A DNA stretch of 64,000 nt from Buxus sempervirens (taxonomy: Eukaryota > Streptophyta > Magnoliopsida > Buxales > Buxaceae): the NCBI GenBank assembly GCA_947561395.2, contig OX387194.1, positions 26,332,536-26,396,535 on the forward strand. Reading direction: 5' to 3'. The notes beneath the pieces are model-generated. The model searched no databases and was not told where the DNA came from. It worked only from the letters and a program-made list of their open reading frames with translations. Shown piece after piece: positions 7,686 to 35,527 of the stretch. The position numbers and the translations under genes were made by a program. Within the stretch, counting starts at the first letter, position 1; each line of letters begins with the position of its first letter.

Positions 7686-9118
7686 CTAGCTAGGTTGGTC
7701 ATCATCATAGTGGGAGGACACGTCTTGCCTCCTCAAGGCGCGCAGAAGCTTGTTCCGCAGACGTCGGTCCTCCTCAGCGCGTTTGCGCACCAAGTCCAGT
7801 TCATGTTGCAAGGCCGTATTGGCCTGCCTACTCTCCCGTTCCGAATCCACGTAAGCTGAATGGATACGGGAGTGAGTCTCCTGTAGTTCGGCCACCCTGT
7901 CCCTGTATGTGTTAGGGGGCGGAACTGGAATGTCGCTTGAAGCGACAGGCTGAAGAGGTGGGGGGCCGTCGTGGCCAAATTCCCGAGCTATCCACTGCTC
8001 GTAGTCTTGAAAGTGTAATTCGGTGAAGACGTCTTCCCGGTATACGCACACCGTTTTCCACTCTGCCAGCAACTGTGTCCTCAGTCCCTTAGTGAGTGGA
8101 CCAATCAAACTGCTCAAGTTGTCCTGGAACGGGATTCCCTGCAGTTTCCCAAACTGTCTCAGAACCCGAATCGGATAGTACGGCACGGCCTGGGTAAGGC
8201 CTATCAAGGCAAGTCCCTCTCTTTTCTTGAAAGCTATGATGGGGGTGTAGGGGATGTTGTATGTACCCCACCATCTAATGTCCGTTTCTCCCTTCAGGTG
8301 GAGAAAGTGGTTAAACCAATCCTCACGAGCAGGTAGGTCTGGTTTGATCTCTCTTTGAGCCAACCAATAGATGTTGTCGCCGGTTGCCTTGTAATATACA
8401 CTGACAGGTGATGACACCATCAGGTGGTCTTGCAGCCAAATGTGGAGAAGGGGAGCGCACCCTTGAAACCTCCGAGTTCCGTTTTTGGACAAAGTCAGGG
8501 AATGGAACAGTTGAGCTAGGATCAGTGGCATGATTCGGTACCTCGTCCTGAGTTGATCCACAATTTCCATGAGGGCCAAATTAATGGTGTCTCCCCCAGT
8601 TGGAAAGAAGATTTGCGACAGAACCACAAGGGTGAAGGTGTCAAACCAAGCTCGGGGTCTTTCTTGCTTTTTGTTTCTCATTTTCTCAGCTAGAATGCTT
8701 TAGAGACCCGAGTAAATTATTTGTCACCTCCTAAGGTCTGGAATTCTCCCCTTGAGAGGCCAAAGAAAACGCAAGCTTCATTCTTGTAGCTTTCTTTGAG
8801 ACTTGGCCTAGCGGGTTCTCCTAAGTCGCGAAATCGGAGGAACAGGTCAAGTTCCTCAATTGTGGGAGTCAACTCGTTGATCCCGAATCGAAACACTGAA
8901 AGCTGGGGATCCCAGAAAAGCAAGGCTGCTTGGATCATATCCCAGTTGATCGGCACATTTAACAGGGACAACGTCTGTCCCATACAGTATTTGTGCTCCC
9001 ATTCAATCTGCTCACTCCCTTGGAGCTACCTTGTCCAAGAACGGATCCAGGGGGTATCCCAGGCGCACTTCTCTATTCTAGGGAAGCGAATTCTCTCAGA
9101 TGAGGATGACGATGCCAT
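7686..9118 (-). pseudogene. Tat-alpha ORF1, DUF7745-like protein, sense to element
   Basis: Extra ORF upstream of gag, a hallmark of Ogre-type Tat elements; its role is unknown. The likely start is 9118, where a Met-Ala-Ser5 N-terminus resembles the start of the antisense homologue at 15973. Family features are FWDPQLSVFRFGINELTPTI (a hydrophobic block then P-T-I-E-E), SYKNEACVFFGL, TLVVLSQIFFPTGGDTINLA, then a charged coiled coil over the last 70 residues. It is broken by an in-frame TAG near 9025 and a frameshift between 8717 and 8681. It reads through the equivalent of the splice junction of the antisense homologue (GCAPLLHIWLQDHL), so this sense copy lacks that intron. Confidence 0.8.
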
Positions 9119-14007: not shown

Positions 14008-14050
14008 TTGCTAAAATTCCAGTAATACCCTTAGCTTTGACTGTTCATAT

Positions 14051-14425
14051 CTTCTTCATCCGGACTCCGATTTGAGCAAACTCAATTGCGTTGGAATCGT
14101 ATCGAAGTCCTCTATCCATTGGGATTGGGCTAAACACCTGGCTCGGGGTTCGAGGAAAAGTCAACTCTCGGCTCTTCCTCAAGTTTGACCGCCCGCAGAA
14201 TCCTCATCCGGCCTCCGATTCCTGCAAAATCAGTTGCGTTGGAACCGTGTCGAGATTCTCTATCCAATGGTATAGAGCAAGGTACTTGGCACCGAAATCG
14301 AGGAAAAGTCAACTCTCGACTCTTCCTCAAGTTTGACCGCCCGCAGAATCCTCATCCGGCCTCCGATTCCTACAAAATCAGTTGCGTTGGAACCATGTCG
14401 AGATTCTCTATCCATTGAGATACAG
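14051..14425. repeat. Three copies of a roughly 130-bp LTR repeat
   Basis: Each unit contains TCCGATTCCTGCAAAATCAG, GAGATTCTCTATCCAATGG and AAAGTCAACTCTCGGCTCTT. Homologous to 1030-1400, and in reverse to the 147-bp array at 34735-35460, so a repeat of this type belongs to the start of the Tat-alpha LTR in both subtypes. Confidence 0.8.
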
Positions 14426-14542
14426 CAAGGCAGCCAGATTTCATTTGATCGAAAGGTCAACTTTTGACCCTTCAGGGTTTGACTTTTTGGCAGGGTTCTG
14501 CATTTTTGGCTTTTTTGGGAGCGCAAAAATGAGGTGCTTACA

Positions 14543-15228
14543 AGATCAATACCTTTTATCCTGAGTTCTTGGGCTTCTTGTACCCATATTTGTTGAAGCC
14601 GCTTGTTGGTTGCCCTTTCAGATTCCAGGATGTGTTCATAAGTAGGGGGAAGAACTGCAGGAGGATCCTCTGGTACTGGGGCATGGCTCTGCACCTGCTC
14701 TTTGATCCAAAAATGATAGTCCTTCACATGCGACTCAGAAAAGATCGGACCCCGCAGAAAGCGAACATAGGACCACTCATTCATTAACCGAGCATTTAGC
14801 CCCATGGTGGCTGGTGTAAGTGGCCCTACGAAATTCTCATATCCAGTTGGGATTGTGATCCCCTGGGTCGCTCCAAACTGCCGAAGAACCCTCAAAGGAA
14901 GATAGAGAACAGCAGATTTCAAGCCTGCTAGGACCAGAAAGTTCCTATCTCTGAAGCTGATCACTGTTTCGGGATTGGGTTGATAAGTGCCATGCCATCT
15001 CACTTGATCATCCTGGATAGTACCCAAGAAAGTGAACCAACCTTACTTGCCACTTTGGATGTTAGGGCACCTCGTGTTGCTCATCAGAACAGTAACTTTC
15101 AATCTTGACTCAGGTGGTCAAGCAACCAAAGCTGCAGAAAAGGGGAGTATTTCAATTTATTTCAAAAGAAAAGAGAAAAAAAAGGGAAAGAAAAGAAAAA
15201 AAAAAGAAGAAGAGAGAAAAAAAAAAGA

Positions 15229-15259
<31 letters not shown>

Positions 15260-15973
15260 TTTATTTCTCTTTTACTTGTAGGATAGGGGCACATGCAAGG
15301 AAGCGTTTCTTCTTTCTGAAATAGCAATCGGTCAGAGCCTGGTATATCTCTGCCAAGATCATAGGGGCCAATCTCTCATGTTCCCTAACCTGGCAGACAA
15401 CTGAGATGAGAGCCAAGTCAACCTGATCATCACCCCATGGAAAAAGCAACTGGTTGACCACTATCAAAGTCAAAGCATTAAACCGGGCATCCTTGTCCTC
15501 ACCCCTTAGAAGTTTTTCAGTCAGAAAGGTCTTGGACAAGGTCAACAGTGTATCAGAATTTTCTAAGTCCTTCTTCCCTATACCCAAGAAGGTGGATGCC
15601 TCCTTTTTGTAACTAGGCTTAAGGGGCGGATTCACTACTTTTTTAGAAAACCTTAGGCCAAGGATGGTTTCAATTTCCTCAATGATAGGAATCATCTCTT
15701 TGTCATAAAAAAGGAAGAGATTTAATTCAAGTACCCAGTGTCCAATCAAAGCTTCAATGATTTCCCACTTAAAGGAATTTTAGGGATGTGTAGGATGTGG
15801 CCTAAGTGGATGGAATCCTAGAGAATTTCCTCATCAACGGTCATGGATTTAACCCACCTATCATTGAAGGAATCCACAACATTGTACCTGGTGAGATTAG
15901 GAGGTTTTGATCTAACAAGTTGTCTTGCAGGAGGAGATTCATCGGCAGAAGAGAACGGGGCGAGGGAAGCCAT
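14543..15973 (-). pseudogene. Antisense DUF7745-like gene of Tat-beta, left copy, with intron
   Basis: Gene of unknown function antisense to the Tat-beta element that carries it. Exon 1 runs from an ATG at 15973 (Met-Ala-Ser-Leu start) to 15276. The intron is 15275-15132 (GT donor after CTACAA; acceptor TTTTCTGCAG) with an AT dinucleotide run and a purine-rich plus strand. Exon 2 is 15131-14543, where the Tat-alpha LTR interrupts it. Family blocks: PIIEEIETILGLRFSKKVVN, FNALTLIVVNQLLFPWGDDQ, ISFRDRNFLVLAG, SHVKDYHFWIKEQVQSHAP. Exon 1 has an in-frame TAG near 15815, and the start of exon 2 has a deletion relative to the right copy and a stop. No product is expected. Confidence 0.8.
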
Positions 15974-16095
15974 GGAAGCACCAAAGAAGCCAAGGAAAGC
16001 AAAAAACGGAGAGCCCAGGGAGTTTTCAAACTATTAAAAACGTCACAATGACGTTCCCCATGAGTTTATATAGAAAATTCAAAAAAAGCAATAAA

Positions 16096-16228
16096 ATCCG
16101 CATTTATAATACGCGCGCAGCGTGCCCGTATAGAAAGTGCAGACACCATGTGCCCGTAAAAAATTTACGAGCAGCGAGTGCCCGCATTAATATTACGGGC
16201 ACAGCTAGTTTGTAATATAAATACGGTT
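16096..16228. repeat. Heptad inverted-repeat array 1 (five 28-nt units)
   Basis: Five units start at 16096, 16124, 16152, 16180 and 16208, a strict 28-nt period. Each has a 7-nt left arm (consensus GCCCGTA), a 7-nt mostly A/T loop, a 7-nt right arm (consensus TACGGGC, the reverse complement) and a 7-nt spacer (such as GCAGCGT, ACCATGT, AGCGAGT). The clearest dyad is at 16180-16200. The array lies between the two antisense genes, upstream of the DUF7745-like gene, where a promoter is expected. The matching stretch in the right half of Tat-beta has been deleted. Confidence 0.9.
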
Positions 16229-16444
16229 TCTTTGAAAAAATGCAAAAAAATGGGAAATTTCAATTTTAATGCTTTCCCAAGTTTCACCTGTCCATGCTTC
16301 AACATGTATCATGCAATGGAAGCAAGAAATAAAGAAGAAAAGAGCATAAATGAAGAAAAAATGAATCAAACTTCTTTTATATATATGAAAGTGTACATCA
16401 TTTTGTCAAAATACAAGTACATGAGATATCCTAATCTAATCTGT

Positions 16445-19312
16445 CTATCTAGATCTACCCCTGCGGCCACGACCACGTCCCCGACCTCGACCATTGCCTG
16501 AAGGTCGCCGGCGCTCAAAAACATGCTCCACAAGACAGCGAGCAGTACTACGGGTCATCCTGCTCAAAATAGACTGAATATCATACCACATATATAAAGG
16601 CACAAGGCCAGCAGTGGGATGATCAGGAGGAACGTACCCCGAAGTATCTACATATCCCGTAGAATCCACATCAGAATCCGCAAAGACAAGCTCACTCACA
16701 GGCTCGGCAGCAGGCACCTCCTCTGTTACAGCAGGCTCCATGGCAGGATCAGCAGGAATAGACGCCTTAGGAGCATCAGCATCAGGCATAGGCTCCGTAG
16801 GCTCAACAGAGGCCTCCTCTATCACCACAGCCTCCTCAGTAGGCTCCACCACAGCGGCATCCCCGGCCGACTCCATATCCATATTAGCAGAATCATCTGG
16901 AGAGGTCTCTGGTGTTGGAGCAGACTCTGGTACATCCTCAGTAGTAAAGGCAACAGTAGGTGCAACCTCGGCCTCAATCTCGGGCTCTGCTGCAGGCACC
17001 TTTACTGGTCTAGGAGAGGTCACAAACTCTACTTGTGCCACAGAGAAGACCTCGCCACGAAGATGCATAGGCGGCAATGAAGCAGGTGACCTAGAAGGGC
17101 TGGTTGGATCATCTTGAAAATAAGAAGAAGAATTCTAATCAGAGCATGATAAGCAGATATAAGAAGCATAAATTGAAAAGGGTGAAAGAATTAACCTGAG
17201 TATGAGATGGACTCGCATGGTCCTGTGCACTAAAAGGACCCGCCTGGCCCTGTGCCCAAGCAAGCTGTCCCCTGAGGTCTGCAACGGTGAAAAGGAGGGC
17301 GTCCCGCTCGGTAATAGCAGCGTCTCGCTGTTGCTCTATATCAGTGTACCAAGAACGGATCTCTGCCAACTGAGCCTCCTGAAATAGAAGAAAATGTGTC
17401 AGAAATGCCAAGTCAAAATAGAATACAAGAATGGAAGATCAAAAAGGGGAAGGCATACCGTGGTATCATAGGCCCTGATCACTACCCCTCCTATCTCCGT
17501 GACTCCACCACGGATAGGCATAGGTGGCATGAGGCACCCAACTGAAGCCTGCCTGAACCAGGCATCATAGTCACCCTCCTCTAACAATGTCTCTGCCTCC
17601 GTCCAATCTAGGAACTGGGCAGGCTCAATAGGAAAAGGAGGAAAAGGAGTAGTATCTGGTGGGATGGTAGGAATCCGAGGCTCCCCAACATGCTGATAAA
17701 AGAAGCGCTCACCGCAGTACTAGATGCTGCCCATCTGACTAATAAAGAACTGGTAATGCTGACGCCTCCGGTCAGGGGCAAACGCGTCATCTCTGGCGGC
17801 ATGCAGGGCCAGCACCTCATGAATGTCCTCCATCCAGGGGACGAACAGCTGAAAAACAGAAAGGAGAATATTAGGCATATGATTCAGGAAAAGGGAAAAA
17901 GGAAGAGCTAAAGAAGATTACCTCAAACCGATACAGCCTGTCCAGATGAGTCCAGGCAGACCTAGGACGACTCTTTTCAGAGTCATGCTCCACATGGCAC
18001 CATCTATGAGCCATAGGATATGTCTCCTCTGACATCGTAGAGGTAGGGTGGAAGTAGGGAATATAAACCCGAGCAAAAAACAGAAAAAGAAGAAAAAAGG
18101 GTCAGAAGAATAAAAAAAAGAGAAGAAGAGAAAGAAAAAATGGAGAAATAGGTGTTTCACCTGCAGGAAGGGCCAGAAGAATCTGCACCCAACTCCAGCT
18201 CCTAGAGAGGTAGAGAGGCCGCTAACTAATCGGCGCAGGCCAGCCAGAATGGTGCCGAAAATAAGCGAGCCCCAAGCGTACCTCCTCACTCGCTGCAAAT
18301 CTCCCAATAAACTTAAAAAATGAGGACTGACAGAAGTCATGTCCTCCGGGAAGAAGCATGAACCCATCATATACAGGAAGATGAAGCGGAAGGCAAAAGG
18401 GAAAACTGTATGACCGGCGGCAAGCTGACCAAGTTGTCTCCTCCTGAAGGTCTCTCTCAACCAAGTCAGAGACAATCGAGGCCTCCCTCTATCCCAGGCC
18501 TCTGGAGGCAATACCACATATCTGAGATAGGCAGCGATCTCTGCAGCATCTGGCATAACCATCTCGGGAATAATATCTCCAAACATCCTGATCCCTGTGA
18601 TGAGTGTGAAGTCGAATGGCCGGATCCCGATCTCAATATCTGAAAAGTGGAAGCTCAACGTCTCTGGAAAAAACCTCTCGAGCATCGCTACAATAAGGGC
18701 TCGATCCAAGCGCACATCAGGGATGGTGATGAAGAGGCCAAAACCAAACAAGTCCAACTCTTGGCGAAAGGCTGAACTGCAGTCTCCGAGAAATCTGATG
18801 AAGCTGGCCCAGCTCCCTCGGTAATGAGACAAGGGATACTCCAAAGGGATATCCGCCCTGATACAAGCTGAGGGATGAGTCTTCAAGCCATGTAGCAGGT
18901 TGGTATCCCTAATCTGTGATGCAACTACCTCAGGGACCTCAACCCTAGTCCTAGCCTCATCCCTGCCACAGCCTCCTCTACGGCCCTCATCTCAGCCTCT
19001 GTCTCTGCCTCCACCTCGGCGCCCGCTACGGCCCCTATCTTTGCCTAAAGCCTCAACTGCCGGCTAAGGAAATAAATTGGAAGGAAGAAAAGGATCAGAG
19101 TGATGAATTTCGAAAAGAAATTTGAATTCAGAAGGGTTAGAGTATACCTCTGGGGTCGCCTCACACGAATCCCCAGAAGGAAGATCTGGGATATTAGAAT
19201 CAGAATCCCTCTCAACTCTCGAGGATGAGGTCACATCAGCATGATCTCGCCGAACCCTCGAAGAAGAGGGCTCATCTGCAGGATCCTTAGAAGCTAATCG
19301 AATACGGGCCAT
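16445..19312 (-). pseudogene. Antisense plant mobile domain (PMD) gene of Tat-beta, left copy
   Basis: Six exons on the minus strand: 19312-19148, 19063-18161, about 18077-17922, 17848-17459, 17378-17196 and 17112-16445. Exon 1 is short, acidic and Ser/Arg-rich. Exon 2 holds the PMD core: FGFGLFITIPDVRLDRALIV, FFPETLSFHFSDIEIGIRPF, LTWLRETF, and YMMGSCFFPED followed by YAWGSLIFGTIL. Exon 5 looks coiled-coil. Exon 6 is Pro/Glu/Ala-rich with an Arg-Gly tail. PMD proteins (the MAIN/MAIL1 group) are plant proteins related to TE-borne ORFs; this one's role is unknown. An in-frame TAG in exon 4 (near 17721) and loss of the AG before exon 3 disable it. It is antisense to the element whose 3' LTR is 21204-23020. 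Confidence 0.82.
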
Positions 19313-20750
19313 CTGCGGTTCAAATCAGGGAAATGTTTCATTATTCTTGTTAAAATTTTTATTGCTTGATTTTCATTTTAACTAAGCTTAATCGTTTGCC
19401 GGAAAAAGGAAAGGAATTGTTGCAGAAATTCCTAATCAGGATTCTTTTAAAGGAGTTTATTTTTGAGAAATTTTATTGTTGTCTTTGAGGAAATTATGAA
19501 AAGATAGGAAGTGCAGACTTCTCATAGAAAAAAATGTGTTAAGTTGCAGCTTTTGTTGATATTTGTCAAGATGCTTAATCATACACTTTTGATTGGTTTC
19601 AGGATAATTTGACATTTGGGTGGATTAGTCATAGATTGGAGGCTGGCCGCTCAAGGGCAAGGATTCCAACCTCTCATTCAGAATATTTGTAGAAAAATCA
19701 GTCATGAGTCAAACAGGAATGTGGGATGCATTCTCACAGATACAAAATTCATGCAAGTACGGACAATAAATTCCGAGAGAAAGCTTTAGCAAAAAAATCA
19801 GATATTAAGGCAACTCAAAAAATTGGGAATGTGTGTCATGATCAAGAATAGGTTTGTAATTGCCTCAAATATTAAGACAAGTGGGAGCTGTATATTCAGT
19901 GACAAGAATCCCAGTCTCTCAGTCAAGAATCAGAAAAATTGCAAGCGACATTTCGCATGTGTCATTAGCAAGAAAAATCAGCATACGAATTGGCGTTTGA
20001 GGATTGCAGATCATTAGTAATCTGATGTATTCATTAAAAAGCTGGAAAATGCAGAAAATCAGCCGGCGGCCAAAGCATGAGTATATCAAAATACAAATCA
20101 GATAGGCATGCTTGGTAACAGTAAACATGAGAACAGAAATTGCACAGCATTCAATTGGGAGAAATTGCACAGTGTTCAATCTGGAGGAATTACACAGTAG
20201 AAGTTAATTATTTAACACATGCAAGAACAGAGAAATTGCATAACAAAAATCATGCATTTCGGTCAATTGCACAACAATTCCGGAGGAAACACATAGCATT
20301 CACAGCAAAAGATAATCATCTAGTGCAGGCATTCAAGAACAGAGAAGCATGATCATGAAGGAAACAGAAAATCAAAATATAATATCATCTGTTCGAGAGA
20401 AGTAAAAACTTGGAGAAGAAAAGGATACATACCTGTTTGTGGAGAAGAAGAAAGAGAGCTTTGGAGTTTACCACAGTCAAGAGCTTCGACATTGCCGACG
20501 CGGCAAATGCAGCAAAAGAAGGTCACGGCAATGAGAGAGGAGCGACAGTCGAATGGTGATCACCGGAGATGGTGGATGTCACCGGAGAAGATGAAGGTTG
20601 CCGGAGTGAACAGTGGTCGCTGGCGAAGTCGTGCACTGTTAGAGATTGAAGATCAAAGACCGGAGAAAAAGGTGCGGACGCAAGCAGTTTAGGGCGAAAT
20701 GCGAGCAAGAATGAAAGAAAAGTCGCGGTCATGATTAAGTAAGCCATTAA
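19313..20750. other. Upstream region of the left PMD gene
   Basis: No family-like reading frame is visible. It separates the PMD start from the inverted-repeat array at 20751 and the LTR at 21204. Part of it (about 20440-20700) is homologous in reverse to 26750-27050 of the right copy and probably belongs to the 5' leader of the PMD transcript. AT-rich, without clear tandem repeats. Confidence 0.5.
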
Positions 20751-20854
20751 ACCTGCAAAAGGAGCACGGGCAGCGGGCGCCTGCAAAAGTAATACGGTCA
20801 ATTGCGCCCGTATTCAAATTGCGGGCATGACCTGCTCGCAATATAAATACGGGC
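20751..20854. repeat. Heptad inverted-repeat array 2 (four units)
   Basis: Units start at 20751, 20779, 20806 and 20834, a 28-nt period with one step of 27. Arms are variants of GCCCGTA and TACGGGC, for example GCCCGTA (7 nt) TGCGGGC at 20806-20826 and GCTCGCA (7 nt) TACGGGC at 20834-20854. It lies upstream of the left PMD gene, and the homologous array 5 (26628-26731) also has one 27-nt step. The loop ATATAAA of the last unit forms a TATA-like stretch with its flanks. Confidence 0.88.
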
Positions 20855-21185
20855 AAATCAGAGAAATGCATTGTTTCATCATTTTCTTTACATTTTTCAG
20901 GAGATAAATGTTTATATTAGTTGTAAGTTGCAAGGATTGCCACCTTACCCACTTTTGTTTAAAAATTTTGTCTCAAAATCTCACTTCATAGCCACAAGTG
21001 CTCAGTGAGACTAAAGAGGAGGATTTGCCCCTTAAGGTTAGGGACTTTTCAGCAAATCCTCCACACAAATTCTTTTTCCAAAATCATCCTTTTTAATCCT
21101 TGCAAAATTCAATTAGTTAGACAAAATCTCAAAAAGTGCATTTGGTGGGTCTTTTTGCTCTCTGCTCGTAATTGGTTCCAATTAC

Positions 21186-21203
21186 TAGCAAAGAAGGGGC
21201 AGT
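21186..21203 (+). promoter_or_regulatory. Polypurine tract before left Tat-beta 3' LTR
   Basis: AGCAAAGAAGGGGCAGT directly precedes the LTR start TGTAGACACCCC at 21204. A polypurine tract primes plus-strand DNA synthesis and lies just 5' of the 3' LTR. This fixes element polarity as plus and shows that the genes at 14543-19312 are antisense. The right copy has the matching tract in reverse at 26278-26296. Confidence 0.8.
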
Positions 21204-21306
21204 TGTAGACACCCCAAATTGCCCTACAAAATGAAAAAATAATTGAAAACATGTAATTGGGATTTAAAACAGGTCAAAATGCATAAAATTTAATCATTTA
21301 AGCAGT

Positions 21307-21411
21307 GCCCGTATTGTATCTACGGGCTGGTCTTGCCCGAATTTTGTATACGGACACGCAGCGCCCGTAATAAGAATGCAGACACCACTTGCCTGCAATA
21401 TATATACGGGC
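21307..21411. repeat. Heptad inverted-repeat array 3 (four units, in U3)
   Basis: Units start at 21307, 21335, 21363 and 21391, exactly 28 nt apart. Modules are GCCCGTA / TTGTATC / TACGGGC / TGGTCTT, GCCCGAA / TTTTGTA / TACGGAC / ACGCAGC, GCCCGTA / ATAAGAA / TGCAGAC / ACCACTT, GCCTGCA / ATATATA / TACGGGC. The array ends about 200 bp upstream of the LTR TATA box, the same distance as in the right LTR. Confidence 0.92.
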
Positions 21412-21612
21412 GCAGGAGATTTGTGCAAATTTTATCCTTGCTCGATTTCTGAGCCTTATCTGCATCCAAATATCTCTCTAGGTGATCGAATTTATTTATT
21501 TATTTATTCGAATTATCCTTGTTGGCCATGGATGGGCATTATCCTTATTTTTAATCCAATCTGGTGGGATCATGGTATATCCTTCTGGACCAGCCGTACC
21601 CCTGGGTTTGCC

Positions 21613-21620
21613 TATAAATA
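21613..21620 (+). promoter_or_regulatory. TATA box of left Tat-beta LTR
   Basis: TATAAATA within CCTATAAATAGAGG, about 410 bp into the LTR, gives the expected transcription direction of the element (plus). The right LTR has the same box in reverse at 25862-25869. Confidence 0.7.
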
Positions 21621-23020
21621 GAGGTGAGATCCTTAAGCAAAGGCCACGAAAATTTGAAGTCTAAGGAGCTCCAAGTGAAGAGAGGAATCCCTGCTGCTCT
21701 GCTTGCTCAATCCAGGTAAGTCCCTTTTCCCTTTTATTTTCTGTCTTCAATTCTAGAAATAATAGGATCTTCTCCATTGTTGTAGAATAAGGCTTGGTTC
21801 TTATTTGTATTCCTAAACCTGCCTCCAAGTACCTCAAGAATCCTCTCTAGCCGTAAAACGTGAAGAGAGAGCTAAGGGAAAGGAGAACATGTGGATCCCT
21901 AGAATAGAACCCCATATATGTTTTTCTCCTTTTTTTTTATAGAATAAGGCCTTTGATTGTGTTTGTATACTCAAACCTGTTTCTAAGTACCTCAAGAATC
22001 CTCTTTAGCCGTAAAACGTGAAGAGAGAGCTAGGGGAAAAGAGAACAGGTGGATCCGTAGGGTAGACCCTCATGTGTTCTAATCTGTGAGATATGGCTGA
22101 TTTGAATATCGTGATCATATTTTAATGATTTTATTTTGAATCTGAATGAATCAAATGAATCCATGATGTTTATAGCATGATATCCTCAATTTTTTTTCTA
22201 AAATTTGGATTTTTCACCACTTTTGCACCTACAGCACTGTTTTCGTGATTTTTGTGATATTAGGCTAAGATCCTGGATCTATCATGATCAGTATGATAGA
22301 TCTGGATTCAGAAGCCTGAAAGTAACTTTTAGGGTTTCATGAGGTGGTTTTTTAGTCCTTTTTCATTTTTGAGAGAAGACCCGACGGTCTAAGGTCTCCC
22401 CTTTTGATGTTCTTCATCAACGTGGGTATTTTTGGTTTTTATTTCTTGATCTAATGTGAAATTTGGACTATACCTGTATCCTGGACTGTTCAAGTTCAAT
22501 TCTGCAATATTTTATAAAAATCATATTTTTCTAGATTTCCAGAATTTAACTTGAAGCTAGATGTTTGAAGTTCTCACTTTAGATTGGTTTTATCTGATTT
22601 TTTATCTCAATTTTATTTTAATCATGAAACCCTAGCAATGGTATGATAATATTTGAAAGTTCTGAATCAATCAAGCTATTCGTATGAAAAAACCATACAC
22701 TTTTGTCTTTTTGTGATTTTTATGATTTTTGTAGCAAGCCCTTTTTCCTTTATTTTAACATGAACAATGCCTGGAAACCACCTTGTATGGATGAATAGGG
22801 GTGCCTAACACCTTCCCCTGTTCAAAACCTAATCCCCTTACCCATCTCTGGTTGTTTTTTTTAATAGGGTTATTTTTACCCTAAATTTGCCTTTTTGTGC
22901 TTATTTGATAATTTTGGTGTTCATTCACACCTAAACAGAATGGTAGCGACTCTTTGTTTTTAACCAATCTCGTGTGATGATTAGGAAGTCATTGAATTGA
23001 TTTTTCCATGTCTCACACCA

Positions 23021-23700
23021 AGTACATACAAAGATGTTAAAAGTTGTTTTAGATATAATAAACATATAATATATGTAAAAGCAAAGTGAACATCTTTTTA
23101 CCTGTGTTGCTTCATCATTCCAGTAATACACAAGCGGTTCCCACTGCTTTGGAAGCACCCCAGGAGGACAATTACAAAATCTGTCCTCATTCGTCGTGTA
23201 AGGGTCATAATATTTTTCCTTCAAGTTTGACTTGGACTTGTCTTTCCATTTCTTATTCAGCAACTGCAATACAAACTCTTTCAGCTGCTCATCCAAGTCA
23301 AACTTTTCCTACATTGCACAACAAATCAATTTCCCAAGTCACAACCAATAAGCGCTGCTATGAAATAAATTAAAGAGATATTTAATTGAAATGATTACCT
23401 ATAATTTACCTAAACGTATTGACATGCTTGGTCCTTTGATCTGGCCAAACCTTCTTCCAGGAGAAGCGGTCAACGGGTATAACATGGCCATCTCGAGCCA
23501 ATGTCCCACAAAAATTTGATAATTTAGAGACATTAGGCCGATGGGCTATCCATGCTCAAATATATCTATGTGCACCTTTGTTCCAGACTTTGTTTGCTTG
23601 TGCAGTGATAGGCATCGAGTAGGGCCCTTGACCTTCCTTGCAGAAGAGTAGCCCTCGCCAACATCTACGCCTGATTGGCTTTCTACCATATCTTCGCACA
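23021..23700 (-). pseudogene. CACTA (En/Spm) transposase fragment, Transposase_24-like
   Basis: Relic of a plant CACTA transposon protein read on the minus strand over several exons or frames. The order is KVKGPTRCLSLHKQ, SGTKVHIDIFEHG, FCGTLARDGHVIPVDRFSWK (about 23520-23430), then DEQLKEFVLQLLNKKWKDKS, NLKEKYYDPYTTNEDRF and PKQWEPLVYYWNDEATQ (23296-23100). This R-G-P-T, F-L-G-T-x-A-R, W-K and Q-W-x-L-V-x-Y-W order is typical of Ptta/En/Spm proteins. It sits in the spacer between the two Tat-beta LTRs and is broken by stops and probable introns. No terminal CACTA motif was found. Confidence 0.75.
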
Positions 23701-23996
23701 TATAGATGTTTAAGGTAAATTCAAAGGAAAGTGATACAAATTAGAAATACAGGTGTATGAAAAAACAGAATACTAAGAATAGTAAATACATAATAGTATT
23801 CGATCACAACTAAAAACATTAAATACATTAAATAAAGAGGTTCCTAGCAACAATAGAAACAATAATAATAACAGAAAGTAAAACAAGCAACTGCAACACA
23901 ATGTTACTTGGATTCCTGCTCGTTTGCAATGGAATCAGCTAATGGACTTTGTTGCTCCATGAATGAATGATATGTTGCATCAACAGTTGTTACAGG
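23701..23996. other. AT-rich spacer, no feature seen
   Basis: AT-rich DNA between the CACTA relic and a Tat-alpha LTR end. It may be CACTA intron or further decayed transposon sequence. No reading frame or repeat is supported. Confidence 0.5.
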
Positions 23997-24455
23997 TGTG
24001 CGCATGTCCCGGTGAGGCGCTGCACTAAAAATGGGAGGAATCGGAGTCGCCACTGCCTGATGGGGTGTAGGCAGACACCTGGGTGCTTATACAGGTCTAT
24101 TTGAATGGTCTGCGGCTTTTTAAAGATTCGAGGTAAGTTCTCGGTTACGTCCAAGGAAGTCAAAAGACACCCTGGCCCGCCCCGTCGATTTGACAGGTCC
24201 CTCGGGTCTCCCTAGTTTGAGTCAACTTAGTTTCACCCAGTTCCTAATCCAACATGCTTATTTATTTGGTCTGAGTGGGGACCACTGAACATATAGGTCC
24301 CCTTGGTTTTTCATTGATTTTTATGTTTTTAGCCTTTTAGCGAAATGGGTCGGGTGTGGACCCCATTGGAAGGCCCATGGTGGATCAAATTGGACCGGCG
24401 GGTCCAAGGCCCATGTTGGGTTCTGGGTCGACCCAGAAAACCCTTTTGGTTCGAT
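23997..24455 (-). mobile_element. Tat-alpha LTR 3' end fragment
   Basis: Matches the 3' end of the Tat-alpha LTR (compare 10639-11640), including GGAGTCGCCACTGCCTGATG, the conserved block near its end. The outer end is TGTGCGCA at 23997. No primer site lies beyond it, so it is a 3' or solo LTR end. The right Tat-beta LTR cuts it at about 24456, showing that Tat-beta inserted into an older Tat-alpha LTR. Confidence 0.75.
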
Positions 24456-25861
24456 TGGTGTGAGACATGGAAAAATCAAATCCAATGACTTCCTCAATCA
24501 TCACGCGGGATTAATTTAAACAAAGAGTCGCCACCATTCAATTTAGGTGTGAATGGACACCAAAATATTAAATAAGCACAAAAGGCAATTTTAGGGTAAA
24601 AATAACCCTCCTAAAAAAAACAACCAGAGATGGGTAAGGGGATTAGGTTATGAACAGGGGAAGGTGTTAGGCACCCCTATTCATCCACACAAGGTGGTTG
24701 CCAGGTATTGTTCATGTTTTACAAAGAAAAAAGACTTGCTATAAAATTCATGAAAAATCACAAAAAAAGACAAAATTGTATGGTTTTTTCATATGAATAG
24801 CCTGATTGATCCAGAACTTTCAAATATGATCATACCATTCCTAGGGTTTCATGATCAAAATAAAATTGAGATAAAATCAAATAAAATCAATTTAAAGTGA
24901 AAAATCCAAAAATCTGGCTTCAAGTCAAATTCTAGAAATCTAGAAAAATATGATTTTTATAAAATATTTCAAAACTGAACTTGAATAATCCAGGACATAG
25001 ATAAAGCCCAACTTTCACATTAAATCTGAAAATCAAAACCAAAAATACCCACGTTGATGAAGAACATCAAAAGGGGAGATCTTAGACCGTAGGGTCTTCT
25101 CTCAATAATGAAAAACAATTTAAAAATCATATCATAAAACCCTAGAATTTATTTTCAAGCTTTTGGATCCAGATCTACCATATTGATCATGATAAATCCA
25201 AGATCTTAGTCTAAAACCACAAAAATCACGAAAACAGTGCTGTAGGTGCAAAAGTGGGAAAAATCCAAATTTTATCAAAAAGCGGGGATCTCATGCTATA
25301 AACATCATGGATTCATGTTATTCATTCAGATTCATCATAAAAGCCATTAAAACATGATCAAAATATCCAAAGCAGCCACATCTCACAGATTAGAGCACAT
25401 GGGGGTCTACCCTACGGATCCACCTGTTCCCTTTTCCCCTAGCTCTCTCTTCACGTTTTACAGCTAGAGAGACTCTTGAGGTACTTAGAGATAGGTTTAG
25501 GTACACAAACACAATCAAAGGCTTTATTCTAGAAAAAAAAGGAGAAAAACATATATGGGGTTCTATTCTAGGGATCCACCTGTTCTCTTTTCCCCTAGCT
25601 CTCTCTTCACGTTTTACGGCTAGAGAGACTCTTGAGGTACTTGGAGGCAAGTTTAGGAATACTAGATAAAAAAGATGGCCTTATTCTACAGCAATAGAGA
25701 AGATCCTATTACTTCTAGAATTGAAGACAGAAAATAAAAGGGAAAAGGGACTTCCCTGGATTGAGCAAGCAAAGCAGCAGGGGTTCCTCTCTTCTCTTGG
25801 AGCTCCTTAGAATTCCTTGGACTTCAAAATTTCGTGGCCCCTAGCCTAAGAATCTCACCTC

Positions 25862-25869
25862 TATTTATA
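25862..25869 (-). promoter_or_regulatory. TATA box of right Tat-beta LTR
   Basis: The minus strand reads CTATAAATAG, matching the box at 21613-21620. It is about 200 bp from the inverted-repeat array at 26071. Confidence 0.65.
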
Positions 25870-26070
25870 GGCAAGCACAGGGGCAAGGCTGGTCCAGAAG
25901 GATATATCCTGATCCTCAGGATAGAGTGAAAGTTGGAGATAATGCCCATCCATAGCCAACCAAGGTGGCTTCAGTGAATAAAAGACATAATTCGCTCATT
26001 TAAAGGGATATTGGACTAAAGATAAAGCTCAGAAATCGAGAGAAGAACAGAACTCGCACGAGTCTTAAGT

Positions 26071-26175
26071 GACCGTAAATGATTTACGGTCCAATGGTGC
26101 CCGTATTATCATTACGGGCGCTGCGTGCCCGTATGCAAAATTCACGCATGCTTAGCTCGTAGTGGCAATACGGTC
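26071..26175. repeat. Heptad inverted-repeat array 4 (four units, in U3)
   Basis: Units start at 26071, 26099, 26127 and 26155, exactly 28 nt apart. The first, GACCGTA / AATGATT / TACGGTC, is a perfect palindrome over 21 nt including its loop. The second is GCCCGTA / TTATCAT / TACGGGC. Spacers are CAATGGT, GCTGCGT and ATGCTTA. It occupies the same place in the LTR as array 3 although loops and spacers have changed. Confidence 0.92.
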
Positions 26176-26277
26176 CAGGCTCTAATTATTGATTTTCATG
26201 CAATTTTGGCCTATTATAATTTCCAATTAATGTTTTCATTATTTCCTCATTCTGTAGTGCAATTTGGGGTGTCTACA

Positions 26278-26296
26278 GCTGCCCCCTCTTTGCTGG
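26278..26296 (-). promoter_or_regulatory. Polypurine tract before right Tat-beta 3' LTR
   Basis: The minus strand reads CCAGCAAAGAGGGGGCAGC immediately before TGTAGACACCCC. It shows the element runs on the minus strand here, so the genes at 27976-32505 are antisense to it. Confidence 0.8.
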
Positions 26297-26627
26297 TAAT
26301 TGAAACCAATTATAAGCAGAGAGCACAAAGACCCACCAATTGTACTTTCTGAGACTTTTGTCTAACCAATTGCACTTTGCAAGGATTAAATGGATGATTT
26401 TATAAAAAAAGAATTTATTTTGGAAGATCTGCTAAAAAGTCCCTCAGCTTAAGGGCCAAATCCTCCTCTCTCCTCTCACCGAGCACTCGTGGCTATGAAG
26501 TGAGATTTAAGACAAAATTTTTAAACAAAAATGAGTATGGGGGCAATCCTTGCAACTTACAACTAATATAAACATTGATCTTTTGAAAAATGTGGAGAAA
26601 ATAATAAAATATGCAATTTTATGCTTC

Positions 26628-26731
26628 GCCCGTATTTTCCTTACGGACAGATGCAGCCCGTAATTGTTCTACGGGCGAACGGGACCGAATTAACTCTACG
26701 GGCGTCTACTGCCCGTACTGATTTTATGGAT
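26628..26731. repeat. Heptad inverted-repeat array 5 (four units)
   Basis: Units start at 26628, 26656, 26683 and 26711, a 28-nt period with one 27-nt step. Best dyad: GCCCGTA / ATTGTTC / TACGGGC at 26656-26676. It lies upstream of the right PMD gene and is the inverted homologue of array 2. Confidence 0.88.
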
Positions 26732-27975
26732 TTTACTCTCTTCTTAATACCGCGACCGCGGCTTCTTCTTCTTCTGCTCGCATTTGTGCCCTATTTCCTC
26801 CTCGACCATATTTCCTCCTATGGTTTTCCTCTTCTTCTTCAACTCTCCGACGCCCCACACGATTTCGCCGGCGACAGCAAGCTCAGGCGACCACTGTTCA
26901 TTCCGGCGACTCTCCTATTCCCGGCAAGCCTTCCTATTTCCAGCGACTGTTCCTGTTTTTTTTTTCATTGCTGTGATTGTGATCAAGTCATTGGAGTGCT
27001 TCACCTTCTCTCAATCGACTGTGGACACTCCTTGAAGCTTCGGTAGAGTAAGGGTTTCTCATTTGCTTGCCAGATTTCTTCCATTTCGACCGAATCCAGT
27101 AAGTGGCCGAAATTTCTCTGATTTTTCTTATGAACAGTATATGCAACAATAAAATCCATGGACGAAATTTTGCTCTTGATTAAACCAAATGCTTACTTTG
27201 TCTATATTGGGCGGATTTGATTTGCAATTTCTATGCCCTGCTTGAATCTTTGTTTCCATATGTAAGTAACAATTCGAACCATGCTGGATTTTGGGGATTT
27301 TTCTGTCTATATTGAGGATCCCAAAATTTTTCAGCATTTACTTGTTTTGCTAATGCCAACTGACAGCATTTCTCTTATTCTTGCTATGCCTATTTTCCAT
27401 GTGATTTTCTGCTTTGATCAGTTTACTTTTCTGCCTCTGAATGGACAAATTTGCTAGATGAATTTCCCGACTTTGAAGCTTGATTGTACTGATTTTGGAG
27501 CTTTGTATGAATTCATGTTGAACCCATGCCTAAACTTGCTTGATGAGCTTGCTTTTCCCAAGCGTTTTTCTGCCAATTTACCATGTATGCACTGTATTCT
27601 TCTAGAACCATTCTTATGATTGACACATAGTTGACTTTATGTCATCTTTGTTCAAAATATGAATTCTTCAATCTCTTGAATATTCCAAGCTTTTTGCCAA
27701 TTCACTGAAGTCACACAAAATTAATAGTTAGGGAATTAAAGCATTCTATACAAAATCAGAGTTTTTTTTTTCAATTTAGAAATAAACCCAAAACTTATAA
27801 ATATATTTTCTTAATTAAATCAAAGGTGAAAGGTGAACTCCTCCCGTTGGTTCGCATTTTCTTCCATTCTCCCTTTTTTCCTTTTTGCTGCAAATCAATT
27901 AAACTTGGTTAAAATAAAAATTAAGCAAAAAATTTTATCAAGAATAATTAACCAACTCCCTAGTTTGAACCGTAG
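26732..27975 (+). other. Upstream and 5' leader region of right PMD gene
   Basis: Non-coding DNA between array 5 and the PMD start. 26750-27050 is GC-richer and homologous to the left copy, probably transcribed leader. The overlapping 141- and 83-residue frames there have no family match that I recognise. 27100-27970 is AT-rich with no visible feature. Confidence 0.5.
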
Positions 27976-30802
27976 ATGGCCCGCCTTCGATCAGCTTCCA
28001 GGGATCCCGCAGATGAGCCTTCCTCTTCGAGGGTTAGGCGTGATCCTACTGATGTGTCCTCATCTTCGAGAGCCGAGAGGGATTCTGATTTAGACATTCC
28101 TGATCTTCCTTCTAGGGATTCGCGCGAGGCGACTCCAGAGGTATATTCTAACCTTTCTGAATTCAATATTCTTTCAAAAAATACATCCTCCTGATTCTTT
28201 CCTTCTTTCAATTTGTTTCCTTAGCCGACTGTTGAGGCTTCGGGCAGAGATAGGAGCCGTAGAGGGCGCCGCAGCGGAGTTAGAGATGTGGGCCATGATG
28301 AGGGCCGTAGAGGAGGCCGCAGGGGAGGCCATGGTAGAGATGAGGCCAGGACCAGGGTGGAGGTTTCTGAGGAGGTGGCTGCCCAAATTAGGGATACCGA
28401 CCTCTTGCATGGCTTGAGGACTCATCCCTCAGCGTGCATTAGGGTGGATATCCCTTTGGAGTATCCGATATCCCATTACAGAGGGATTTGGGCTAGCTTC
28501 ATTAGATTCTTGGGGGCTTGCAGTTCAGCCTACCGCCGGGAGCTAGGCTTACATGGCTTCGGCCTGTTTATCACCATTCCGGACGTGCGCATGGATCGAG
28601 CCCTCATTGCTGCACTGCTTGACAGATTCTTCCCGGAGACATTGAGCTTCCACTTCCCAGATATTGAGATCGGGATCCGGCCTTCTGACTTCACCCTTAT
28701 CACCGAGATTAGGATGACCGGTGATATTATTCCTGAGATGGTGATGCCAGATGCCGAGGAGGTCACTTCTTATCTTGGATATATAGTCTTGCCTCCTGAG
28801 GCCTGGGATAGAGGGAGAGCGAGATTGTCTCTGACATGGTTGAGAGAGACTTTCCTTAGGAGACAGCTTGGACGGCTGGTTGCTGGTGATCCTGTTTTTC
28901 CCTTTTCCTTCCGATTTATCTTCTTGTATATGATGGGCTCCTGCTTCTTCCCAGAGGACACGACTTCAGTTAGTCCTCACTTTTTGAGCTTATTGGGGGA
29001 TCTGCATCGAGCAAGGAGGTACGCCTGGGGCCCACTCATTTTTGGTACTATTTTGGCCAGACTACGCCGATCTGTGAGCGGCCTCTCTGCTTCCAGAGGA
29101 GCTGGAGTTGGGTGCAGATTCTTCTAGCCCTTCTTGCAGGTGAATCATTTTTTCCTTTTCTCTTTCTTTCTCTCTTTCTATCTCTCTTTTTCTATTCCTC
29201 TGACTCTTTTTTTTTCTGTCTGCAGTTCTTTGCTGGGGTTTATATACCCTATTTCCGCCCTACCTCTACGATGCCTGAGGATACGTATCCCATGGCACGT
29301 AGATGGTGTCATGTGGAGCACGACTCTGAAAGAGTCGTCCTAGGTCCGCCCGTGCCCACCTGGACAGACTATACCGGTCTGAGGTAATCTACTTTAATTC
29401 CTCTTCTTTTTTCTTTCTTTTTCTTCCTGAATCACATGTCTAATATTCTTTTTCTGGTTTTTCAGCTGTTTGTCCCCAGGATGGAGGACATTCATGAGGT
29501 GCTGGCCCTGCATGCAGCCAGAGATGATGCTTTCGTCCCTGACCAGAGACGTCAGAGATATCAGTTTTTCATTGGTCAGATGGGCAGCATCTGGTACTGC
29601 GGCGAGCGCTTCTTCTATCAGCATGTGGGGGAGCCGCGGATTCCTGCCATTCCTCCAGATACTACCCCTCCTTTCCTCCTATGCTTGTTGATCCTGCCCA
29701 GTTCCTAGATTGGACTGAGGTAGAGAAGTTATTAGAGGAGGGTGACTATGATGCCTGGTTCAGGCGAGCTTCAGTCAGGTGCCTTATGCCACCCATGCCT
29801 ATCCGTGGTGGAGTCACGGAGATAGGAAGGGTAGTGATTCGGGCCTACGATACGCCTTCTCTTTTTGTGATCTTCTATTTTCATTTCCTTTGAATTTGGC
29901 ATTTTTTGACTCCTTCTTTTCTATTTCAGGAGGCCCAGTTGGCAGAGATCCGGTCTCGATATGCTGATCTAGAGCGCTAGCGAGATGCTGCGATTGCTGA
30001 GCGGGACACCCTCTACATCACGATCTCGGACCTTTGGGAGCAGCTAGCCAGAGCACGGGGCCAGGAGGGTCCATCTGATGCACAGGACCAAGCGGGTCCG
30101 TCTGATGCACAGGTTAGTTTCTTCTTTTATTTCCATTCCTGCTCTTGCATTAGTTTGTCTTGTTCTGATTGAAGTTTCTTCTCTTATTTTCAGGAGGACA
30201 CAGCCGGCCCTTCTTCACTTGCTTCAACTGTGCCCATGCATCTTCGTGGGGAGGTTTTTTCTGTGGCACGGGTGGAGTTCGTGACTTCTCCCAGTCCGGT
30301 AGAGGCACCTACAGCAGAGCCTGAGATCGAGGCTGATATTGCACCTGCTGCTGAGGATGTGCCAGAGTCTGCCCCAGTACCTGAGACTGCTCCTGATGCA
30401 TCTGCTGAGTCGGCCATGGATACCGCTGTGGTAGAGCCTACCGTGGAGGCCATGGTGATTGAGGAGGCTTCAGCTGATCCTGTGGAGCCTGGTCCTGATG
30501 CTGATGTACCTGGGTCATCTGCTTCTGCTGGTCCTGCTATGGAGGCTGTAGAGGAGACGCCTGCTACTGCTGATCCTTCGGTCGATTCATCCCGTACTGA
30601 TTCAGATACTGAGTCTACAGGATATGTAGATACTTCAGGGTACGTTCCTCCTGATCATCCCACTGCTGGCCTTGTGCCTTTATATATTTGGCATGATATT
30701 CAATCTGTTTTGAGCAGGATGACTCGTAGCACAGCCCGAAATATTGTGCGGCATGTCTTTGAGCGCAGGCGATCTTCAGGCCATGGTCGGGGCAGAGGAT
30801 GA
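27976..30802 (+). pseudogene. Antisense plant mobile domain (PMD) gene of Tat-beta, right copy
   Basis: Six exons on the plus strand, antisense to the element: 27976-28140, 28225-29139, 29226-29383, 29466 to about 29853, 29930-30112 and 30194-30802. All introns but the fourth keep GT-AG ends. Exon 2 holds the PMD core (LHGFGLFITIPDVRMDRALI, FFPETLSFHFPDIEIGIRPS, LTWLRETF, YMMGSCFFPED, YAWGPLIFGTIL) after an Arg/Gly-rich start. Exon 5 is coiled-coil-like and exon 6 acidic, Pro-rich with a Gly-Arg tail. Defects are a TGG to TAG change at the end of exon 2 (29124), a frameshift in exon 4, loss of the donor after exon 4, a TAG in exon 5, and an early stop in the Arg-Gly tail. Cellular role unknown. 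Confidence 0.85.
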
Positions 30803-32505
30803 GGCCGTGGCTGTAGGGGCGGACCAGGTATAACGTGGTAGATTCTTTCTATAACAGATGGGTTAACTCCATGACCCTTGATGAGGAGATTCGCTGGGAT
30901 TCCATCCACTTAGGCCATATCCTACACATCCCTAAAATTCCCTTTAAGTGGGAAATCATTGAAGCTCTGATTGGACACTGGGTTCCTGAGCTGAATCTCT
31001 TCCGTTTTGATGATAAAGAGATGACTCCCACCATAGAAGAAATTGAAACCATCCTTGGCTTAAAATTTTCTGAAAAAGTTGTGAACCCACCCCTAAAGCC
31101 TAGCTACAAAAAGGAGGCCTCCACCTTCCTGGGTATAGGGAAGAAGGACTTAGGAAATTCTGATGCACTATTGACCTTGTCCAAGACCTTTTTGACTGAA
31201 AAACTTCTAAGGAGTGGGGACAAGGATGCCAGGTTTAATGCATTGACTCTGGTAGTGGTCAACCAGTTGCTTTTTCCACTGGGTGACGACCAAGTTGACT
31301 TGGCTCTCATCTCAGTCATCTGCCAAGTTAGGGAACGTGAGAGATTGGCCCCTATGATCTTAGCAGAGATATACAAGGCCCTTACTGACTGCTATTTCAG
31401 AAAGAAGAAACGCTTCCTTGCCTGCGCCCCTATCCTACAGGTAAAAAGGAAATAATAATAATTTTTTTTTCTTTCTTTTTTTTTCTTTCTTTTTTTTTCT
31501 TCTTCTTCTCTTTTTCTTTTTCTTTCCTTTTTTTTTCTTTCTTCTTTTCTTTTTTTTTTCTTCTTTTTTTTTCTCTTTGGAAATAAATTGAAATACTCCC
31601 CTTTTCTGCAGCTTTGGTTGCTTGACCACCTGAGCCAGGTTGAAGAGATAACTCGCCGCTTCTTTCCAAGATTGAAAGTTCCTGTTTTGATGAGCAATAG
31701 GGGGTGTCCTAATATCCAAGGCGGCAAGCAGGGCTGGTTCACTTTCTTGGGTACTCTCCAAGATGATCAGGTGACATGGCCTGGCACTTATCAGCCTACT
31801 CCAGAGACAGTGATCAGCTTCAGAGATAAGAACTTTCTGGTTCTAGCAGGCTTGAAATCTGCTATTCTTTATCCTACTTTGAGGGTTCTTCGGCAGTTTA
31901 GAGCGACTCAGGGGATTATGATCCCCACTGGATATGAGAAGCTCCTAGGGTCACTTACACCAGCCACCATGGGTCTAAATGCTCAGTTAATGAATGAGTG
32001 GTCCTATGTTCGTTTTCTGCGGGGTCCAGTCTTTTCTGAGTCCCATGTGAAGGACTATCACTTCTGGATCAAAGAGATGGTACAGAGTCATGCCCCAGTA
32101 CCCGAGGATCCTCCTGCAGTTATTCCCCCTACTTATGAGGACATCCTGGAGTCTGAAAGGGCAACCCACAAACGGCTTCAACAAATTTGGGTGCGTGAAG
32201 CACAAGAACTTAGGATAAAAGTCATTGATCTGGAGAGGAAACTTGAAGAGAAGAAGTCTGGTCGCATTGCCATGGAGAAGAAACTTGAAGAACAAAGGCA
32301 GGCTCGTCGCTTTGAAGTCCGAGCTATGCGGAAGAAATATCAGGATTCCCTGGCTGACCTTAGGGCGTTGAAGATCAAGCATTCTCTTTCAGATGAGATC
32401 ATCTCCTTTTTGAGTGACCCTGATGCAGAAGGAGCTTCTGGAATCATTGCAACTCAGGCAGCTAGGATTAGGGAGCTTGAGGAGCAGTTAGGAAGTAGGG
32501 ATTAG
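30803..32505 (+). pseudogene. Antisense DUF7745-like gene of Tat-beta, right copy, with intron
   Basis: The best-preserved member of this family here. Exon 1 (to 31440) and exon 2 (31612-32505) are separated by a phase-0 intron, 31441-31611, with donor CTACAG/GTAAAA and a long pyrimidine tract before TTTTCTGCAG. Blocks: WVPELNLFRFDDKEMTPTIE, FNALTLVVVNQLLFPLGDDQ, ISFRDKNFLVLAGLKSA, SHVKDYHFWIKEMVQSHAP, then a charged coiled coil (LERKLEEKKSGRIAMEKKLE) to the stop. The normal start (as at 15973 in the left copy) is missing: a deletion joins the PMD tail to codon TRYNVVDSF-like sequence near 30827. Both exons are otherwise open. Function unknown; homologous to ORF1 of Ogre-type elements. Confidence 0.82.
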
Positions 32506-33419: not shown

Positions 33420-34613
33420 TCAAGGAAAATATCTCTTTACTGCATCAGAATTAATTGGCTCAGGAAAATCTTTCCCATCCATTTCTGTTAAGATGAGAGC
33501 ACCCCCTGATAGGACCTTCTTGACAACGTAAGGTCCTTTCCAATTTGGTTTGAATTTTCCACGAGGGTCTTCCAAAAAGGGTAAAATTTTCTTCAATACT
33601 AAATTTCCTTCTTGGAAAGTTCTGGGCTTCACCTTCTTATTGTAAGCCCTGGCCATTCTCTTCTGATACAATTGGCCATGACAAAGCGCCTTCAAACGCT
33701 TTTCTTCTATTAGATTGAGTTGATCATGTCTTGACTGTATCCATTCAGCTTCTTCTAATTTAGCTTCGATTAGCACTCTTAATGAAGGTATTTCTACTTC
33801 CACTGGTAAAACCGCTTCCATCCCATATACTAAGGAATACGGGGTTGCCCCTGTAGAAGATCGAATCGAGGTTCTGTAAGCATGTAGAGCAAGTGGCAGC
33901 ATTTCATGCCAATCTTTGAAACTTACTACCATCTTCTGAATAATCTTCTTTATGTTCTTATTTGCTGCTTCCACTGCCCCATTCATTTTTGGTCTGTAAG
34001 GAGCTGACTTATTATGGGTAATCTGAAATTGTTCACACATCTTTCTCATGTCCTTGTTCTTTAGGTTTGAAGCATTGTCTGATACTATGGCACTTGGGTG
34101 ACCATAGCGACAAATGATGTTGTGCTTCAAGAATTTCAGAACGTGGCTACTTGTAATGTTTGCATATGAAGCTACCTCTACCCACTTGGTGAAGTAATCA
34201 ATTGCTACAAGTATAAACCTGTGTCCATTTGATGCCTTTGGAGAGATCATTCCAATGACGTCTATACCCCACATGGAGAAGGGCCACGGGGATGTCATGT
34301 TGTGTAATTCACTTGGGGGTGCATTCTTGTTATCCGCGTACACTTGGCATAAATGACACCTTTTGACATGTATATAGCAATCGTGCTCCATAGTCGACCA
34401 GTAATATCCCAATCGCAGAATTTTCTTGGCAAGCATGTGCCCATTCATATGGGGTCCACACACTCCTCCATGTACAGTTTCAACTAACCTTTCTGACTCG
34501 GTCTTGGCAACATCTCTAAGTAGTATATCATTGTGTGATCTTTTGTACAACTGCCCACCACTTAAAAAGAACTGTCCTGCCAACCTTTGTATTGTTCTTT
34601 TCTCTGTAGAGGT
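33420..34613 (-). pseudogene. Tat/Ogre integrase, N-terminally truncated
   Basis: Integrase joins element DNA to the host chromosome. The frame is open over about 398 residues and ends at a natural stop. Parts in order: an H-H-C-C zinc domain (HMNGHMLAKKILRLGYYW to KRCHLCQ); a catalytic core with all three acidic residues, in MWGIDVIG, AIVSDNASNL and NGAVEAANKNIKKIIQKM; and a C-terminal domain with KFKPNWKGPYVV. The sequence style (SNGHRFILVAIDYFTKWVE, HAYRTSIRSSTGATPYSLVY) is that of Ogre/Tat. A Tat-alpha LTR cuts the frame at 34613/34614; the first 15 residues of the open frame come from that LTR. RT and RNase H are not in the window. Confidence 0.92.
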
Positions 34614-34734
34614 TGTAAGCACCTCATTTTTGCGCTCCCAGAAAAACAACAAATGCAAACCCTGGACAGAAAGTCAAACCCTAAGGGGTGAAAAGTTGAC
34701 TTTTTGATCAAGTGAAAATTGGCCACCTCGCTTT

Positions 34735-35460: not shown

Positions 35461-35527
35461 TGCCCAGATCGGAGTCCGGATAAAGAAAATATGAGCTGAT
35501 GAAGTTTCCGAGCAGCAAAACTGGCAA

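Follow-up and report, generated by a model that had tools for sequence, protein, structure and literature searches.

Rows of inverted seven-nucleotide words as candidate promoter operators of a Tat-like LTR retrotransposon

We analysed a 64,000-nucleotide stretch of the Buxus sempervirens genome (contig OX387194.1; the window), which contains two inverted, decayed copies of one long terminal repeat (LTR) retrotransposon, Left on the plus strand and Right on the minus strand; by its PMD, DUF7745 and LTR elements, the window sequence looks plant-like. Five arrays of inverted heptamers accompany these copies. We propose, with a probability of about 0.67, that the arrays are double-stranded DNA operators common to the predicted promoters of this Tat-like element. 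Each operator would be a row of 8 or 10 GCCCGTA half-sites, placed every 14 bp in alternating orientation, and the promoters concerned would be those of the LTR and of two antisense PMD-type genes (aORF1 and aORF2). The rows would be occupied by a protein, either dimeric or aligned along the DNA as an oligomer, and occupied rows would switch these promoters, or hold them open, together. Protein binding, and any effect on transcription or silencing, are predicted here from sequence. The half-site reading fits because the arms of the arrays keep a consensus, the loops do not, module lengths hold and the arrays adjoin promoter signals. The sample comprises one element family, three loci and two decayed copies.

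A preliminary description of this stretch had reported five arrays built of an arm, a loop, an inverted arm and a spacer of 7 nt each, with a period of 28 nt in all but two steps. The arrays were recovered with this architecture at the following positions:

16096..16228, array A1: 5 units, 133 bp; adjoins the predicted aORF1 promoter, no counterpart in the Right copy
20751..20854, array A2: 4 units, one spacer of 6 nt; located 5' of aORF2
21307..21411, array A3: 4 units; about 100 bp into the Left LTR
26071..26175, array A4: 4 units; homologue of A3
26628..26731, array A5: 4 units with one 6-nt spacer; homologue of A2

The 21 units reported earlier (42 arms) were all found, and 14 of the 16 steps between units measure 28 nt, the other 2 measuring 27 nt. 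All five arrays exist, but they represent only three loci: the arrays at 20751 and 26628, and those at 21307 and 26071, are the same sites in inverted copies, since they fall in homologous stretches of Left and Right (20690-23021 against 26793-24455, 84% identical). Two further stretches align between the copies (16458-19412 against 30819-27877, 79% identical; 14543-15892 against 32231-30823, 85% identical), and A1 sits in about 565 bp without a counterpart in the Right copy. Because the short spacer is the same spacer in two homologous arrays, both 27-nt steps are probably one event. The LTRs were placed as follows:

21204..22937, plus strand: Left LTR, starting with TGTAGACACC; ends approximate
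24540..26277, minus strand: Right LTR, by homology to Left; ends approximate

The copies face each other (14543-32231) and both stop at about the same point past the LTR (23021 and 24455), with unrelated-looking sequence between them.

In a fixed-architecture scan of the 64-kb window, with the consensus taken from the arrays themselves, the five arrays scored 49, 49, 47, 34 and 33 of 56, where the mean of the scan was 12.9 (standard deviation 3.1), and the highest unrelated site among the best 40 rows reached 26/56. A motif-free scan, which required at least three forward and at least three reverse copies of a 7-mer within 140 bp, returned 15 loci including all five arrays; a single control sequence, made by shuffling the window in 300-bp blocks, gave 0. 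Tandem Repeats Finder at score 40 reported none of the five arrays, which is consistent with the arms being the only recurring part.

The arm consensus given before, GCCCGTA/TACGGGC, was confirmed. Among the 42 oriented arms, counts at positions 1 to 7 are G 38, C 29, C 36, C 35, G 41, T 30 and A 41; weaker leanings flank the arms in an A/T-rich setting, with T directly before the arm in 22/42 and A or T after it in 35/42 and 40/42. Arm identity between units is 0.71 and 0.79, against 0.28 by composition, and loop identity across units is 0.374, against 0.368. Loops are mostly A/T-rich, as described earlier, with 18% GC; spacers have 52% GC. Spacers had been said to vary freely, but their freedom is not complete: 10 of the 14 full-length spacers start with A in the orientation used, and identity across units is slightly above that given by composition (0.326 against 0.252). 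A T at arm position 4 accompanies a C at position 6 (5/7 against 4/35 in the arms of all five arrays, P 0.003), an association that may reflect two binding variants or shared descent.

These figures bear on a functionless tandem repeat, produced by slippage in one promoter region and spread by duplication, comparable with the varied repeats seen in Tat-type 3' regions. The excerpts available of PMC11963269 describe Retand elements as commonly having repeats close to the 3' LTR, and some likeness of loops and spacers between loci was found: four non-homologous comparisons of up to 100 reached P<0.02, where one or two would do so by chance. However, plain decay of such a repeat would blur arms and loops equally, whereas here the arms hold and the loops are at composition level. 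We consider this origin unlikely.

The arms had also been said to stay complementary. Pairing is kept, but only through the closeness of each arm to one consensus, without covariation. Within units, 106 of 147 positions pair, against a mean of 110.3 for randomly dealt partners (P 0.96), so that compensatory change between arms, the mark of a hairpin RNA, was not found there. Across spacers the figure is 88/112, against 86.7 for random partners (P 0.37). Of the 147 paired positions, 40 carry a change in a single arm; both arms are altered at 2, and pairing persists at one of the 2.

The preliminary description had offered a protein with two 7-nt half-sites or a hairpin RNA as possible reasons for selection on spacing. 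In the latter case, array transcripts would form stem-loops that yield small RNAs or act as a packaging or processing signal. Each of the 10 strands is more stably folded than its dinucleotide-shuffled versions (z -2.7 to -9.1, the extreme being A1 minus). When the arms were fixed and the loop and spacer letters shuffled, however, 8/10 strands did not exceed the controls at P 0.05, one of these giving 0.0525; for A3, A4 minus and A5 the fold was weaker than the control mean. The A1 minus strand beats three of three such arm-keeping controls and A2 minus two of three (P 0.04, 0.045 and 0.17), in a set of 30 tests with uncorrected P values. A fold-back of the whole array, prompted by the z of A1 minus, was tried and rejected, the non-arm positions at 13 centres pairing no better than shuffled ones (lowest P 0.054). 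A1, moreover, lies upstream of its TATA box. The arms by themselves account for most of the folding, with a marginal exception in one strand of a single array. This, together with the lack of covariation, favours protein half-sites over hairpin RNA, which we hold to be improbable.

Comparison of Left with Right gives a second view of the same modules. Arms are identical at 88/112 positions (79%), and loops and spacers together at 58/97, less than the arms (P 0.004). No indel separates the two copies in 209 array bp, where 6.2 were expected from the flanks up to the LTR end (27 gap events per 276 substitutions; P 0.002). In the loops and spacers of A1-A3, one indel was seen against 4.7-7.9 expected (P 0.05-0.003), for an assumed depth of 0.3-0.5 substitutions per site since a common unit. 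Selection on array spacing is thus likely on these comparisons. The preliminary description had named free length variation and independent arm decay as outcomes that speak against constraint; in the window arrays, lengths are not free, and arms do decay independently.

The position of the arrays relative to promoter signals is the other line of evidence. The signals are:

16065..16072, minus strand: TATATAAA, 23 bp from the end of A1
15820..15973, minus strand: frame of 51 codons that starts with the ATG at 15973 and runs to a stop, upstream of the DUF7745/PMD frames
21613..21618, plus strand: TATAAA of the Left LTR, 201 bp past A3; in both copies by alignment
25864..25869, minus strand: TATAAA of the Right LTR, 201 bp from A4

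A1 lies 23 bp before TATATAAA on the minus strand, upstream of the antisense DUF7745/PMD gene; we infer that the frame opened by the ATG at 15973 and the downstream DUF7745/PMD frames are one gene. A3 and A4 start about 100 bp into the LTR. A2 and A5 are located 5' of aORF2, where a promoter for this gene is predicted; in the Left copy, what looks like an intron lies 5' of the aORF2 ATG (19312). Thus, in the Left copy an array stands beside each of three predicted promoters, with TATA boxes at two of the three loci.

The arrays are also rich in CpG, with observed/expected ratios of 1.2-1.77. The ratio is 0.33 for the remainder of the Left LTR, 0.09 immediately ahead of this LTR and 0.53 over the window; much of the excess in the arrays is the motif itself. 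Between the copies, CpG is kept at 11/16 sites in the arms, 5/15 in the U3 flank (P 0.08) and 10/16 in the transcribed part of the LTR. Such CpG-rich rows might instead serve the host as a silencing target, drawing methylation or a repressor of the host in place of an activator, and repeats can be targeted by RNA-directed methylation (PMC10398659, in the excerpts available). However, the element would gain nothing by keeping such a target, and its CpG is retained, not lost; we think this explanation improbable as well. Another reading takes the arrays for small mobile insertions, each resembling a tiny fold-back element. Three sites of similar length would agree with it, but no consistent duplicated flank was seen by eye around the arrays and homologous sites are retained in both copies, which makes it very improbable.

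Several observations weigh against the proposal that the arrays are operators. The arms (79%) are not better kept than their flanks (71-86% nearby, 89-92% deeper in the LTR), so the case for selection on arms draws on two other comparisons: that among units, and the lower likeness of loops and spacers than of arms between the copies. The indel result is weak when judged by windows, 23% of 105-bp flank windows being indel-free too. Retention of arm CpG is not clearly above that of the U3 flank and equals that of the transcribed part of the LTR. The region beside A2 has no clear TATA box; there are only three loci, and promoter position was noted post hoc. Finally, folding of the A1 minus strand exceeds all three arm-keeping controls (P 0.02, 0.02 and 0.008).

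If the arrays are operators, the binder may be a host factor, a possibility we put at somewhat below even odds, and the arrays would then be enhancers like the boxes of Tnt1, a copia element; for inverted half-sites separated by 7 bp, ARF dimers at IR7 sites offer a precedent. A PMD or DUF7745 protein of the element itself seems to us a doubtful binder, less likely than a host factor. An element-encoded binder would make the arrays part of a self-regulon, like VANC and its targets, or like TNPA and the CACTA subterminal repeats. In such a self-regulon, the antisense PMD/DUF7745 proteins would bind the rows that precede the LTR promoter and their own genes, and would activate or un-silence the element, a scheme that we likewise regard as rather unlikely. 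If it is true, DNA-binding regulation would be suggested as an original role of the PMD family, whose members include the host silencing proteins MAIN and MAIL1. A DNA word common to the LTR promoter region and to the regions before both antisense PMD-type genes offers a direct and cheap binding test of self-regulation.

The frames of the element are as follows:

14260..15779, minus strand: aORF1 frames, Left (15261-15779: DUF7745 1.2e-17, PMD 1.1e-8)
17918..18991, minus strand: aORF2 frame, Left (PMD 2.1e-14); ATG at 19312 after the possible 5' intron
28225..29127, plus strand: aORF2 frame, Right (PMD 9.2e-14)
30817..31455, plus strand: aORF1 frame, Right (DUF7745 1e-20, PMD 5.9e-12)
33420..34673, minus strand: integrase frame, Right (rve 1.6e-13), upstream of the antisense genes

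The aORF1 frame at 14260-15042 has a weak PMD match (0.0093), below the cut-off. In the Right copy, integrase on the minus strand is followed by aORF1 and aORF2 on the plus strand, that is, by antisense genes between pol and the 3' LTR, and the name Tat fits this gene layout. The TRP28 domain, a Retand trait, was not found in the 20 frames scanned, the antisense frames matching PMD and DUF7745 instead; a reverse transcriptase of the arrays' element was found neither among the frames scanned nor by a crude motif search. When three PMD-type frames were aligned, the others showed 84% and 30% identity to the first. A further DUF7745/PMD frame (7686-8699, minus strand), whose gappy alignment with aORF2 shows 30% identity, lies near a gag frame (4952-6004), and the fixed-architecture scan found no GCCCGTA array beside it. 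Tandem repeats of 147/148 bp occur near antisense genes and integrase (1024-1521, 14045-14543 and 34613-35494).

Published excerpts give these genes some context. In a survey of plant Gypsy elements (PMC9289625), no other extra domain is as common as PMD, whose function is called unknown there, and two PMD clades are encoded by Gypsy elements only (PMC5418596). Host PMD proteins are required for genes with a promoter motif, by a route described as unknown (PMC7156037, PMC9899485); the instance of this DOWN motif quoted in PMC9899485, CATGCAGTTT, has five letters in common with an arm variant, which we did not count as evidence. Regulatory roles have been proposed for the antisense genes of such elements (PMC11963269, PMC7264820).

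Rows of other inverted words occur elsewhere in the window. CAACGTT/AACGTTC rows (AACGTTCG type, 62-bp repeats) lie at 47161-47404 and 63721-63904 in a pair of 98% identical LTR-like repeats; the row at 47161 is about 100 bp before a TATAAAA (47117, minus strand), and a gag frame occupies 61466-62470. Repeats of 84 bp with inverted GGCGCCAACC-type words (53836-54077 and 59366-59607) lie inside a pair of 99.6% identical 2.5-kb repeats, and the motif-free scan picked out GCGCCAG and CTAACCT rows at 59301 and 53761. A GCGCGAA row with TCGCGCGAA palindromes (36861-36985) has a TATATAAA about 1 kb upstream, near 35868, in what is possibly the LTR or leader of a different element. The motif-free scan returned five more loci with inverted 7-mers, three or more in each orientation (45801, 56321, 23841, 16801 and 10981). 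If such rows are family-specific operators, the GCCCGTA case would be one of several.

Searches beyond the window gave little. Among the matches listed, titles and abstract openings on PMD with LTR elements, U3 palindromic repeats or antisense open reading frames with binding sites described no such array, a weak negative with most subscription journals outside the scope; nor did the matches listed include anything on NAC-type palindromic sites, a further candidate. One palindrome pattern matched 70 stretches in viral contigs, which we took for chance; longer or LTR-specific patterns gave 0 matches, and a pattern search of genome contigs gave 3 bacterial stretches. An integrase scan found no relative, a protein search with the aORF2 frame no match among 5362 candidates, and a PDB search no match at E up to 1.

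Five known systems resemble the arrays in part, as far as the available excerpts of the sources describe them. In the anti-silencing system VANC/VANDAL (PMC5735166, PMC10398659), where a protein of the element binds the repeats and lifts silencing, a short motif is likewise repeated in non-coding parts of the element, with fast change around the motif and family-specific words. However, VANDALs are MULE DNA transposons and not LTR elements, whereas the arrays' element has an integrase and LTRs; the published VANC21 motif is YAGTATTAY, and VANC binding is proven, while array binding is predicted from sequence. A self-regulon here, if true, would be a counterpart of VANC in a retrotransposon. 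The subterminal repeats of CACTA elements (PMC2613891) are also rows of short sites with GC-rich and AT-rich parts, and a TNPA-type binder is element-encoded; these repeats are ends of DNA transposons needed for excision, in contrast to arrays at an LTR and internal promoters. In Retand and Grande (PMC11963269, PMC7264820), no common promoter word is reported in the excerpts available, and Retand antisense genes are mostly TRP28, compared with PMD and DUF7745 here. The BII boxes of the Tnt1 LTR (PMC3316501) are likewise sites in an LTR promoter, and DNA-binding factors are known to bind the boxes; these are host factors, and the excerpts show no antisense genes. Finally, ARF dimers occupy IR7 sites, two inverted half-sites 7 bp apart (PMC10690724), an arrangement like that of one unit; the ARF half-site TGTCNN does not match the arm consensus GCCCGTA, and IR7 sites do not form regular rows of eight or ten.

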